Assembly (NCBI RefSeq): GCF_001205715.1
Contig: NZ_AQQZ01000001.1
Span: 558,001-622,000 of the forward strand
Reading direction: 5' to 3'
Source: Pseudaestuariivita atlantica
GTDB taxonomy: Bacteria; Pseudomonadota; Alphaproteobacteria; Rhodobacterales; Rhodobacteraceae
DNA: 64,000 nt
Shown: one piece after another, positions 4,419-58,080 of the stretch
Numbering within the stretch: position 1 is the first letter of the stretch
Layout of the letters: each line of letters begins with the position of its first letter
Translations under genes and position numbers: made by a program
Notes under the pieces: generated by a model
What the model was told of the DNA's origin: nothing
The model's database searches: none
The model's input: the letters and a program-made list of their open reading frames with translations, nothing else

Positions 4419-6457
4419 CCGACGGGCTGCGCCGGTTGCTGGCGCCGCGATCCATCGCGGTTGTGGGGGGTGGCGCGTGGTGTCGGAACGTGATCCGCGC
4501 GGCGACCGAGTTCGGGTTCGACGGGCCGATCTGGCCGGTGCATCCGACGCGGACCGAGGTGGCGGGCCTGCCCGCCGTGCCCGGCGTCGATGCCTTGCCT
4601 GATGCGCCCGATGCGGCCTTCGTGGGTGTGAACCATGCCGCCACGCTTGACGTGATCGCGGCGCTGGATGCGCGCGGGGCAGGGGGTGCCGTGGCCTTTG
4701 CCAGCGGGTTCGGCGAGGTCGAGGACGCGGATGCGGGTGACCGGCAGGCGCGGCTGGTCGAGGTTGCGGGTGAGATGCCCGTGATCGGGCCGAATTGCTA
4801 TGGTTTCGTCAACGCGCTGGATCGAGCGGCGCTCTGGCCGGACCAGCACGGGCTGGTACCCGTGGCGCGCGGCGTCGCCATCGTGACGCAATCGTCGAAC
4901 ATCGCGATCAACATGACGATGCAGCGTCGCGGTCTGCCCATCGCCGCGATCGTGACGGCGGGCAATCAGGCGCAGCTGGGGCTGGCCGACCTGGGAGAAG
5001 CGCTTTTGCGCGATGACCGGATCACGGCGCTTGGCCTGCATATCGAAGGCGTCGGCGACCTTCGCGCGTTCGAGAGGATGGCGGCAACGGCCCGCGCCCT
5101 TGGCAAGCCGGTCGTGGTGCTGAAAGCGGGACGGTCGGCAGCGGCGCGGGAAGCGACGCTGTCGCACACGGCATCCCTTGCGGGCAGCAGCGCCGGGGCC
5201 TCGGCGCTCTTTCGGCGGCTGGGCTGCGTGGAGACCGAAGGGATTGCGGCCTTCCTTGAGACGCTCAAATTTCTGCACGTAACCGGGCCACTCAAGGGCG
5301 GGCGCCTCGCGTCGATGTCCTGTTCCGGGGGCGAGGCGTCGCTGATCGCGGATGCGGTGGAGGGATTGCCGGGGCTCGACTGGGCTCCGATGACGGAGGC
5401 GCAGCGCACGGGGCTGGCAGAGGCGCTTGGCCCCAGGGTGACGCTCGCCAACCCGCTGGATTATCACACGTATATCTGGAACGACGTGCCCGCGATGACC
5501 CGCGCCTACGCGGCGATGCTGGCCGGGCCGCAGGACCTGACGCTGATCGTGGCGGATTTCCCGCGCGCGGATCGCTGCGATCCCGCCGACTGGGCCTGCA
5601 TCGTCGACGCCGCGCGGGACGCTCAGGCAAAGGCGGGCGGGCGGCTGGCGCTGATCGCAAGCCTGCCTGACACGATGCCCGAGGACGTGGTGGCCGCGCT
5701 TGCGCCGCACGGAATCGCCTGCCTGTCGGGGCTGACCGAGGGGTTGGAGGCGGTGCGGCTGGCGGCCACGCCCGGCCCTGCCACGACGCCTGATCCGGTG
5801 CTGTTGGCAACCGAACCGCGTGATCCGGTGCGGGTCGAGGAGGGCACGGCGAAGGACTGGCTGGCCGCGCACGGCGTGCCGGTGCCCCGGCGCGCGCGGG
5901 CCCGCGATGCTGCCGAAATTGCCGATGCGGCGCGGGCGCTGACCGTGCCGCTGGTCCTGAAAGGCGAGGGCGTGGCGCATAAATCCGAGGCAGGGGCGGT
6001 GCGGCTGGGGCTGACGTCGCCCGACGCAGTGCGCGCGGCGGCGGAAGAAATGGCGGCTCCGGGGTTTCTGGTCGAGGAGCAGATTGAAGGCGGCGTGGCC
6101 GAGATCCTCGTGGGCGTGGTGCGCGACCCCGCGCACGGGTTCGTCCTGACGCTGGGCGCGGGCGGTGTGCTGACCGAGATGTTGCGCGATACGGTGTCAA
6201 TGCTGGTCCCGGCCTCGCGTGCCGAGGTCGAACAGGGGCTGAACGGCTTGCGCGTCGCCACGCTGCTTGACGGATATCGCGGGCGGCCCGCGGGGGCGAA
6301 GGCGGCGCTGCTCGACCTGGTGATGGCGGTGCAGGCCGCGGTCATTGCCGACGCGGCCCGTTTGAACGAAGTTGAGATCAACCCGGTGATCGTGACGCCC
6401 GACCGCGCGGTCGCGGTGGATGCGCTGATCGAAAGAGGAGACATGCGCGATGAGTGA
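4415..6457 (+). CDS. NDP-forming acyl-CoA synthetase, probable carnitine/gamma-butyrobetaine:CoA ligase
   Basis: 680 residues, single-chain alpha-beta type ADP-forming acyl-CoA synthetase. Domains in order: CoA-binding Rossmann fold (about 8-130), two succinyl-CoA-synthetase-like flavodoxin folds (about 145-440), and an ATP-grasp domain from about 460 to the end with VPLVLKGEGVAHKSEAGAV. The phosphohistidine is His251 in LSHTASLAG. It should activate gamma-butyrobetaine or crotonobetaine for the neighbouring dehydrogenase and hydratase. Enterobacteria use an AMP-forming ligase (CaiC) or CoA-transferase (CaiB) for this step, so the NDP-forming type is a different solution. Start ATG 4415 overlaps the previous stop (ATGA). 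Confidence 0.85.
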   Translation: MTDGLRRLLAPRSIAVVGGGAWCRNVIRAATEFGFDGPIWPVHPTRTEVAGLPAVPGVDALPDAPDAAFVGVNHAATLDVIAALDARGAGGAVAFASGFGEVEDADAGDRQARLVEVAGEMPVIGPNCYGFVNALDRAALWPDQHGLVPVARGVAIVTQSSNIAINMTMQRRGLPIAAIVTAGNQAQLGLADLGEALLRDDRITALGLHIEGVGDLRAFERMAATARALGKPVVVLKAGRSAAAREATLSHTASLAGSSAGASALFRRLGCVETEGIAAFLETLKFLHVTGPLKGGRLASMSCSGGEASLIADAVEGLPGLDWAPMTEAQRTGLAEALGPRVTLANPLDYHTYIWNDVPAMTRAYAAMLAGPQDLTLIVADFPRADRCDPADWACIVDAARDAQAKAGGRLALIASLPDTMPEDVVAALAPHGIACLSGLTEGLEAVRLAATPGPATTPDPVLLATEPRDPVRVEEGTAKDWLAAHGVPVPRRARARDAAEIADAARALTVPLVLKGEGVAHKSEAGAVRLGLTSPDAVRAAAEEMAAPGFLVEEQIEGGVAEILVGVVRDPAHGFVLTLGAGGVLTEMLRDTVSMLVPASRAEVEQGLNGLRVATLLDGYRGRPAGAKAALLDLVMAVQAAVIADAARLNEVEINPVIVTPDRAVAVDALIERGDMRDE

Positions 6458-8227: not shown

Positions 8228-9877
8228 ATGCGGACATTGATTTTGACAATGAATTCTCAGGGCGGCGCGCGTGCCGCGATCTTCCGGGTGGTGGCGGTCT
8301 GCGCCATGGCCGTGGTTTTGCACCTTGTCAGCATCGCGCCCGCCAGCGCGCAGGTGACGGCCTTCAAACAGGCAATCGCCGAGGCGGCCGCGAAGGACAA
8401 GGACCTCGCCGCGTTTTACAAGGCCAACAAGTTCAAACCGATCTGGGTGGGGCGCACCGGCAAGGACCGTTCCCGCCGCGAGGCGTTCATCAAGGCGGTG
8501 CGCGCGGCGCCCATGCACGGGTTGCCCGCACCGAAATACGCGATCGACGACCTCGTGGCGCGGATGAAATCGGTCAAGGGCGCGGAAGCGCGGGCGCAGC
8601 TTGAAGTCGACATCTCCACCACGTTCCTCGAATATGCGACCGACATGCAGACCGGCGCGGTCGATCCGCGCCGGATCGACCCGGTCTTCATGGTGCGGCA
8701 GGTGCCGTACCGGTCGCGCGTGTCCTACCTGACCAACCTCGTGAAATCGTCGCCGCGCGGGTTCTTCAAGGCGCTGGCGCCCCGGTCAGAGGAATATGCA
8801 CGCCTGATGAAGGCCAAGCTGACCTATGAAAAGGCGCTGGCGCGCGGGGGCTGGGGCCCCAAGGTACCGGCCAAGTCGCTCAAACCCGGCGCGTCGGGCG
8901 CGCCGGTCGTGGCATTGCGCAACCGGCTGGTGGCGATGGGGTACATGAAGCGCAGCTCGTCCGCCTCGTATGACGGGGCGCTGGCGGCGGGTGTGCAGCA
9001 GTTCCAGCTGGCGCACGGGCTGACCCCCGATGGCGTCGCGGGCGCAGGCACGATGATCGAGATCAATACCGGCATGGACAAGCGGTTGCAGTCCATCATC
9101 GTGGCGATGGAGCGCGAACGTTGGATGAACATCCCCGAAGGCCGCGGCAAGCGTCACGTGCTGGTCAACATCCCCGATTTCACCGCCAAGATCATGGATA
9201 ACGGCAAGGTCACCTTCGAAACCATCACGGTGGTGGGCAAGAACGACCCCGACCGGGAAACGCCCGAATTCTCGGACGTGATGGAATTCATGGTCATCAA
9301 CCCGTCGTGGTACGTGCCGCGGTCGATCGCGACCAAGGAATACCTGCCGCTCCTGCGCCGCAACTCGGGTGCGGTGCGGCATCTGGAAATCACCGACAGC
9401 CGGGGGCGGGTGGTCAACCGGGGCGCCGTGAATTTCGCGCAATATAACGAGCGCAACTTCCCGTTCAACATGCGCCAGCCTCCCAGCCGCCGCAACGCGC
9501 TGGGGCTGGTGAAGTTCATGTTCCCCAACAAGCACAACATCTACCTGCATGACACGCCGGCCAAGAACCTGTTCGACCGCGAACGCCGGGATTTCAGCCA
9601 TGGCTGCGTGCGGCTCGGCAAGCCGTTCGACTTTGCCTATGCGTTGTTGGCCCGGCAGGAAAGCAACCCCGAGGCCTATTTCCAGTCGGTCCTGAACACC
9701 GGGTCCGAGACACGGGTGAACCTGAAACAGGACGTGCCGGTGCACATCATCTACCGCACGGCCTATACCACTCCGAAGGGGCAGATGCAGTTCCGGCGCG
9801 ATGTCTACAATCGTGACAGGAAGATCTTCGCCGCGCTGAGCCGCGCCGGGGTTTCGCTGCGCGCGGTTCAGGGGTAA
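8228..9877 (+). CDS. YcbB-type L,D-transpeptidase (YkuD domain)
   Basis: 549 residues from ATG 8228; ATG 8249 is an alternative and both precede the signal peptide IFRVVAVCAMAVVLHLVSIA ending ASAQ. Regions in order: an N-terminal scaffold, a peptidoglycan-binding PG_binding_1 repeat (GASGAPVVALRNRLVAMGYM), then a YkuD catalytic domain. The catalytic signature HDTP...FSHGCVRLG gives His458 and Cys460. It should form 3-3 cross-links in peptidoglycan in the periplasm. The divergent MepK-like gene mirrors the ycbB-ycbK pairing of E. coli. No good Shine-Dalgarno decides between the two starts. Confidence 0.88.
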   Translation: MRTLILTMNSQGGARAAIFRVVAVCAMAVVLHLVSIAPASAQVTAFKQAIAEAAAKDKDLAAFYKANKFKPIWVGRTGKDRSRREAFIKAVRAAPMHGLPAPKYAIDDLVARMKSVKGAEARAQLEVDISTTFLEYATDMQTGAVDPRRIDPVFMVRQVPYRSRVSYLTNLVKSSPRGFFKALAPRSEEYARLMKAKLTYEKALARGGWGPKVPAKSLKPGASGAPVVALRNRLVAMGYMKRSSSASYDGALAAGVQQFQLAHGLTPDGVAGAGTMIEINTGMDKRLQSIIVAMERERWMNIPEGRGKRHVLVNIPDFTAKIMDNGKVTFETITVVGKNDPDRETPEFSDVMEFMVINPSWYVPRSIATKEYLPLLRRNSGAVRHLEITDSRGRVVNRGAVNFAQYNERNFPFNMRQPPSRRNALGLVKFMFPNKHNIYLHDTPAKNLFDRERRDFSHGCVRLGKPFDFAYALLARQESNPEAYFQSVLNTGSETRVNLKQDVPVHIIYRTAYTTPKGQMQFRRDVYNRDRKIFAALSRAGVSLRAVQG

Positions 9878-30448: not shown

Positions 30449-30470
30449 GCGGTTCCGTCGCGGTTCCGTC
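30449..30470. repeat. 11-bp tandem duplication
   Basis: GCGGTTCCGTC occurs twice in a row immediately after the stop codon. The remaining gap to 30647 (about 180 bp between convergent genes) holds nothing I recognise. Confidence 0.5.
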
Positions 30471-53374: not shown

Positions 53375-57654
<4,280 letters not shown>

Positions 57655-57672: not shown

Positions 57673-57724
57673 GTTCGCAAATGTTCTCAAAAAGTTCTTT
57701 ACAGACCGTTTCCCGTATGAGAAC
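57673..57724 (+). promoter_or_regulatory. LexA (SOS) box upstream of a small membrane protein gene
   Basis: GTTC-TCAAAAA-GTTC at 57683-57697 is a perfect alphaproteobacterial SOS box (GTTC-N7-GTTC). A further GTTC (57673-57676) sits 6 bp before it, and GAGAAC (57719-57724) ends the region. The spacing to the small gene start at 57764 allows a promoter here, though no consensus -35/-10 pair is clear. Confidence 0.7.
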
Positions 57725-57763
57725 AAATAAGCAACAAACATGATCGAGAGCAGGTCACCAACA

Positions 57764-57883
57764 ATGTACGCCCAAGTCAAAACTACCCTCCGCCGCAGCC
57801 GGTCCACCCTGATCGAGGATGCCGCCGGCGCCGCCGCACTGACCGTGATGCTGCTCGCCGCGCTCTACCTGCCGGTTCTCTGA
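57764..57883 (+). CDS. 39-residue membrane protein, SOS-box-associated
   Basis: Starts at ATG 57764 and ends at TGA 57881-57883. The basic N-terminus (YAQVKTTLRRSRSTLIED) is followed by one hydrophobic helix, ALTVMLLAALYLPVL, so it is a single-pass inner membrane protein with the basic end in the cytoplasm. Only AACA lies near a ribosome-site position (weak). Upstream is a perfect LexA box; a strong terminator follows at 58043. Caulobacter SidA, a 29-residue SOS-induced division inhibitor, has the same size class and topology, but I see no sequence identity to claim homology. Rhodobacterales carry similar short proteins of unknown role. Confidence 0.65.
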   Translation: MYAQVKTTLRRSRSTLIEDAAGAAALTVMLLAALYLPVL

Positions 57884-58042
57884 CCCTTTCTGCCTGCATC
57901 CCCGTGCCTTGACCCCGTGGCGCTCCCCAAGCGTCATGCCCGCGCAACACTGCCTGTCCGCGCGGCCTCGCATTCCGGATCTGCCTTCCGCAATGCCGAT
58001 TTCCGGGTCTCAAGGGTCCCACACGGGCGATTGCTCACCTCT
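57884..58042. other. intergenic stretch between the small gene and its terminator
   Basis: About 160 bp with no gene I would support. It is GC-rich and could be the 3' part of the small transcript. Confidence 0.4.
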
Positions 58043-58080
58043 CCGCCGCCAGCGCCCCACGCTGTGCGGCGGTTTTTTTT
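58043..58080 (+). terminator. strong rho-independent terminator
   Basis: CCGCCGC (58043-58049) / GCGGCGG (58066-58072) with an inner CAGCG/CGCTG (58050-58054, 58060-58064) and a one-base bulge, followed by eight T residues (58073-58080). It ends the recG/small gene unit before rpiA. Confidence 0.93.

Follow-up and report, generated by a model that had tools for sequence, protein, structure and literature searches.

Effectors of the SOS response that pause the cell are small and fast-diverging, and annotation easily overlooks them. With TisB of Escherichia coli there is both an antisense RNA, IstR-1, and a full-length mRNA that is inhibited, and the mRNAs of type I toxins often carry regulatory folds. 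The Rhodobacteraceae are a large family of bacteria from sea and soil, and we know of no SulA- or SidA-type inhibitor in them. SidA itself, from Caulobacter crescentus, is reported to be an SOS-induced inner-membrane protein of 29 residues that blocks division through FtsW (PMC4211646). DinR of Klebsiella pneumoniae is an SOS sRNA from the 3′ end of the LexA-controlled dinI mRNA; DinI modulates RecA filaments and DinR silences ftsZ (PMC10907235). VcdRP of Vibrio cholerae, a dual-function RNA, encodes a protein of 29 residues and depends on four consecutive cytosines for its regulation (PMC8672173). The LexA motif described for α-proteobacteria is GTTC-N7-GTTC, and comparative work has predicted LexA sites for recG in some of them (PMC3323433).

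The locus considered here was found in a window of 64,000 nucleotides from Pseudaestuariivita atlantica, where a small gene with a LexA-type box occupies 57673-57883, 3′ of recG. Its features are as follows.

55546-57654, + strand: recG, the conserved neighbour upstream of the small gene
57673-57676, + strand: upstream GTTC half-site, 10 bp before operator 1 and on the same helix face, nearly invariant in 76 relatives
57683-57697, + strand: LexA operator 1, GTTC-N7-GTTC (motif conservation; also before recA, uvrA and others in the same genome)
57698-57703, + strand: probable −35 element TTTACA (column conservation and fixed spacing; resembles the genome's own lexA promoter)
57718-57726, + strand: probable extended −10 element TGAGAACAA, 17 bp past the −35
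near 57733, + strand: probable transcription start
57721-57735, + strand: operator 2, GAAC-N7-CAAC, in the opposite orientation over the −10 (GAAC in 76/76 and CAAC in 75-76/76 relatives)
57748-57754, + strand: probable ribosome-binding site GAGCAGG
57764-57883, + strand: 39-codon ATG frame for the membrane peptide MYAQVKTTLRRSRSTLIEDAAGAAALTVMLLAALYLPVL (family profile, codon-position bias, predicted helix)
57885-58038, + strand: conserved structured RNA with a closing helix and three hairpins (covariance models, covariation)
57887-57896, + strand: unpaired C-rich strand UUUCUGCCUG just past the stop (CTGCCTG in 77/79 3′ regions; unpaired in folds)
57896-58034, + strand: closing helix P1, in which 57896-57915 pairs with 58005-58034 (fold; helices 1-5 of the covariation count)
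57916-57938, + strand: hairpin 1, with a C-rich loop (fold; helix 6 of the covariation count)
57940-57965, + strand: hairpin 2, with loop CUGCCUGUCC (fold; helix 7 of the covariation count)
57968-57999, + strand: hairpin 3, with loop UCUGCCU (single-sequence fold; outside the pairs counted for covariation)
58043-58080, + strand: intrinsic terminator, a 12-bp hairpin followed by T8, also in relatives

An earlier sequence-only reading had pointed to a GTTC-N7-GTTC box at 57683-57697 with an extra GTTC six bases before it, and this is what the sequence has. It had also called a frame of 39 codons specifying one basic segment and one membrane helix, whose size and topology it likened to SOS-induced membrane toxins or division inhibitors (SidA, TisB-like) without clear sequence identity, and the frame is in the sequence as described. 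The terminator that it gave to the gene is present, though not directly behind the frame; it lies some 160 bases past the stop, and a conserved RNA fills the space between.

With SidA the locus shares LexA-type control, a tiny (predicted) inner-membrane protein and an α-proteobacterial host; a very short protein, one predicted membrane helix and an SOS-type promoter occur together here as in the SidA type. Unlike SidA, which was compared by description only, the present peptide has no homologue outside the Rhodobacteraceae in a class-wide profile search, and it comes with a structured RNA, whereas the accessible part of PMC4211646 mentions no such attachment. The likeness to TisB/IstR-1 is a small hydrophobic peptide, with SOS induction that is established for TisB and probable here; the difference is that the present transcript gives no signal of 5′-3′ inhibition. 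DinR and dinI likewise combine a 3′-end RNA and a small protein on an mRNA under LexA, but here that protein is a predicted membrane-helix peptide and the RNA is a closing helix with three hairpins. The resemblance to VcdRP, which is one of features only, consists of a dual-function RNA (a proposed one here) with a small protein, and of cytosines, which regulation by VcdRP needs and which form C-rich strands in the present case, but VcdRP is under CRP and acts on carbon metabolism. The operator GTTC-N7-GTTC is common to this locus and the α-proteobacterial LexA regulon; in contrast to the recG sites of PMC3323433, the present site is behind recG and would serve a separate small transcript, which is a different claim.

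Operator and promoter

Bare GTTC-N7-GTTC was rejected as proof of LexA control, being by itself near chance: there are four matches in the window against 1.75 expected, a number reached by 7 of 100 shuffles, and in the whole genome there are 137, where the reversed pattern has 80. Further copies in the window, at 6230-6244, 9116-9130 and 30452-30466, are about the chance level. The stricter TGTTC-N7-GTTCT has seven matches in the whole genome, the small-gene site included, and precedes recA, uvrA (which we take it to be from the translated sequence), a PA0069-type radical SAM gene, an imuA-like gene (a weak assignment, with a score under the family cut-off) and a DnaE2-type OB-fold frame. Because it stands before recA, uvrA and other SOS genes, this motif is very probably the LexA box of P. 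atlantica. The last of these boxes is 2.9 kb beyond the window end (L123, G000:C1:624959-624975), and the short frame behind it is like the error-prone DNA polymerase DnaE2 in the C-terminal OB-fold end alone. The remaining TGTTC-N7-GTTCT site (L121, G000:C1:2974-2990) has no evident SOS gene adjoining it.

At the small gene the box is part of a composite operator, with GTTC three times at spacings of 10 and 11 bp beside the −35 and GAAC-N7-CAAC over the −10. Positions 57673-57697 of the window read GTTCGCAAATGTTCTCAAAAAGTTC, followed by TTTACA and then TGAGAACAA. The three GTTC, CTTTAC, TGAGAACAAA and GCAAC are near-invariant across 76 aligned copies, and since their spacing is fixed they suggest a promoter with −35 TTTACN, 17 bp and the extended −10. 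Operator 1 abuts this −35, and the inverted second operator overlies the −10. The genome's own lexA promoter, TTGACA-N17-TAGAAC, is similar in layout, and GAAC-N7-GAAC, to be compared with operator 2, is found in its recA and lexA promoters. An alternative start at ATG 57740 would give 47 codons but leave almost no leader.

When 297 family genomes (one per genus) were scanned, the composite pattern was found in 219, at most once in each, and the reversed-control pattern in none of the 297. Conservation in relatives removes the doubt that the weak bare box had left, and LexA control of the small gene is strongly supported by sequence, as the sequence-only reading had claimed from the box.

The membrane peptide

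Across the family the peptide has 36-42 residues. No member of the alignment departs from D19, G22 or L34, and M1, L26 and P37 are almost as constant. The first, second and third codon positions show differences of 0.39, 0.26 and 0.57, and pS (0.64, with synonymous sites near saturation) exceeds pN (0.32), from which purifying selection on the protein is indicated. There is one start and one length class among 79 sequences and, judged by these patterns, the frame is evolving as coding sequence. AlphaFold2 predicts a single helix of residues 2-35 (pLDDT 87), basic, amphipathic to hydrophobic, with the C-terminal half hydrophobic. The P. atlantica peptide has no match in Pfam or NCBIfam, 36 members searched against Pfam gave one stray match (E 0.05), and no relative was found in the PDB.

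The structured RNA

The approximately 150 nt between the stop codon and the terminator are a conserved structured RNA. Two motifs are shared by the 3′ regions, CTGCCTG (77/79) and CTGTCCC (66/79), each expected about three times in shuffles. When all 3′ regions were aligned with MAFFT, the terminator was the sole consensus fold; the rest was brought out by single-sequence folds together with a covariance model whose seed was ten similar sequences. The single folds agree in layout: UUUCUGCCUG stays single-stranded, a long helix closes around hairpins with C-rich loops, usually three of them, and the terminator hairpin follows. The closing helix forms in 76/76 folds against 33% of dinucleotide shuffles, a figure that is partly built in because the stretches were cut by reference to the helix, and this applies less to the others, namely exactly three hairpins in 57/76 folds against 12% of dinucleotide shuffles and a mean z of −3.1.

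The covariance model R1, whose seed of ten relatives excludes the P. atlantica window, finds 57885-58038 of the window (47.9 bits) together with 69 further loci, with one hit apiece; a second model, R2, scores the window RNA at 64.5 bits. In the R1-based alignment 86.8% of cells pair and 29 of 30 pairs have changed on both sides, counts that lean toward structure because the alignment was fitted to it, with the controls nonetheless far off: covariation is 0.534 against 0.177 ± 0.008 when shuffled and 0.05-0.08 with slid partners. As G-U pairs (111) exceed A-C mismatches (46), the structured RNA is assigned to the + strand. No Rfam family scored above its gathering threshold, and a permissive search of the region gave only E > 1. 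Taken as a dual-function RNA, the transcript has the two parts that the type calls for, a frame that is conserved and a conserved non-coding part with covariation.

Inhibition between 5′ and 3′ parts, as in type I toxin mRNAs, was considered for the post-stop motif and the ribosome-binding site and gave no signal: the energy of their pairing is what shuffled leaders give, and the ribosome-binding site pairs with the 3′ part at a probability of 0.11. Targets in trans were sought through the exact complement of the hairpin 2 loop, GGACAGGCAG, and none was convincing: the complement has 26 occurrences in this genome and the reversed pattern 40, which is no enrichment, and none of the complement's sites there is at a clear ribosome-binding site.

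Distribution in the Rhodobacteraceae

Eighty named loci were fetched with RecG as anchor, blind to the small gene. The module is present at 79 of the 80, which are the closest RecG matches and, with several species per genus, are not independent; in 78 the element is directly behind recG. At one locus (L043) a gene in reverse orientation has been inserted and the module follows it, farther downstream, frame and RNA included. The sole recG locus of the 80 without it within 3.5 kb is from an uncultured Sedimentitalea (L097). In a single-sequence peptide search, 27 of 30 fetched loci adjoin recG, and under laxer filters the RNA (E < 0.05) is found at 22 of 28 family loci retrieved by peptide search.

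A peptide profile built from 36 members matches 267 of the 297 family genomes, and in the rest of the class it found nothing convincing, only two weak matches inside long frames. The RNA is in at least 134 of the 297 under a strict scan in which ten candidates per genome were scored; the class scan outside the Rhodobacteraceae gave none. In ten genomes compared by eye the RNA has the strand of the frame and starts at most 60 bases from it. Across the family, promoter, frame and RNA occur as a set. The frame has no match in the phage and plasmid collections, and an origin from either was rejected for that reason; matches to PHROG were single and weak.

Peptide and RNA can nonetheless come apart, since one genome (G024; L200, G024:C12:297500-298900) keeps the LexA element and a very diverged frame (MRPTVKPTRTLPDLPDALADMLGVAAIGVATLTVLWLPALAGV) with no recognisable RNA. 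A second, weak match to the RNA model, of 29.7 bits, is away from the small frame (L201:647-798, G264:C3:86046-86197; it starts UUUUUCUGCCUGCG), and is possibly a stand-alone paralogue of the 3′ RNA, or chance.

The sequence-only reading had proposed that box and frame should both be conserved in relatives with change biased to synonymous positions, and both are conserved, with change biased to the third codon position. Its interpretation as an SOS effector holds in part: LexA control as far as sequence goes, the unlisted family and the predicted helix stand, and the second operator, the promoter geometry and the 3′ RNA were missed.

Possible mode of action

That the locus is a module of LexA control, peptide and RNA is, on computational grounds, highly probable. 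What it may do can be set out as a single LexA-repressed unit of ~350 nt with two products, a peptide working in the manner of SidA or TisB and a 3′ RNA in that of DinR or VcdR. The unit would be switched on when DNA damage removes LexA, and the two operators would hold it tightly silent and probably make it late. The peptide would insert in the inner membrane with its basic N-terminal part cytoplasmic, and its conserved D..G and LHLP positions may contact a membrane partner. The most likely partner, judging by SidA and DidA (PMC4211646), is the divisome, in which case division would pause during repair. The 3′ RNA, acting on the full transcript or cut free, would use its C-rich strands (CUGCCUG, CUGUCCC) to pair with G-rich sites of other mRNAs and lessen their translation. 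Analogy with DinR and VcdRP, together with the conserved unpaired C-rich motifs, is the reason for reading the RNA as a trans-regulator, and the arguments for such action about balance those against it. Division arrest by the peptide, resting on analogy as well, is somewhat less likely to be right than wrong. The whole account, one LexA-repressed transcript with a peptide that pauses division and a 3′ RNA that lowers mRNA translation, we would give an even chance. More tentative is its specific form as the SOS checkpoint of the Rhodobacteraceae, a dual-function RNA whose peptide holds the divisome or membrane and whose multi-seed 3′ RNA silences mRNAs.

The main rival to trans action is a purely cis role, in which the RNA protects the mRNA, restrains translation of a harmful peptide or shapes decay, leaving an SOS gene with one product. 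The constant attachment of the RNA to the frame and its ending in a terminator fit this, as does the frequency of regulatory folds in type I toxin mRNAs as a matter of general knowledge, but repeated, unpaired and near-invariant C-rich strands resemble pairing seeds more than a protective fold, and nothing indicates that the post-stop motif covers the ribosome-binding site (shuffle-level energy; the low pairing probability given above). We consider it unlikely, if the best of the alternatives.

Somewhat less likely again is that the peptide is a TisB-like toxin, depolarising the membrane and favouring dormancy with no inhibition of division. Size, the basic amphipathic-to-hydrophobic helix and the tight composite operator would suit such a toxin; against it, the gene is passed on vertically in single copy throughout the family and its sequence is under restraint (D19, G22, L34), which a specific partner explains better than a generic pore, and a non-exhaustive look at the conserved parts of the module recognised no antisense antitoxin. 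A regulator other than LexA might read the GTTC repeats, with the unit answering another stress, and the third in-phase GTTC and the inverted GAAC-N7-CAAC do exceed a simple LexA box; with the same box marking recA, uvrA and other SOS genes in this genome, and GTTC-N7-GTTC being the described α-proteobacterial LexA motif (PMC3323433), this is very improbable. That the RNA, strong as its structure is, might be the sole product and the frame incidental is barely credible given the codon-position differences, pS above pN, a single start and a single length class shared by 79 sequences, and a frame that outlives the RNA in G024.

Returning to the module itself, it is real, conserved and undescribed in the available literature and libraries; no earlier description was found in the literature, an absence that is weak evidence as many subscription papers were out of reach. 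Each of its parts is of a known kind. What is new is to have them combined under LexA throughout a family, on a single transcript whose peptide seems to represent a new protein family and whose RNA seems to represent a new RNA family. The Rhodobacteraceae thus seem, on comparative grounds, to have an undescribed DNA-damage effector, a near-universal candidate for SOS function in an ecologically dominant family. If the proposal is true, dual-function RNAs would gain a LexA-controlled example, the operator, start codon and loops would be short clean targets for separate mutation, and the Rhodobacteraceae would gain a testable DNA-damage checkpoint.
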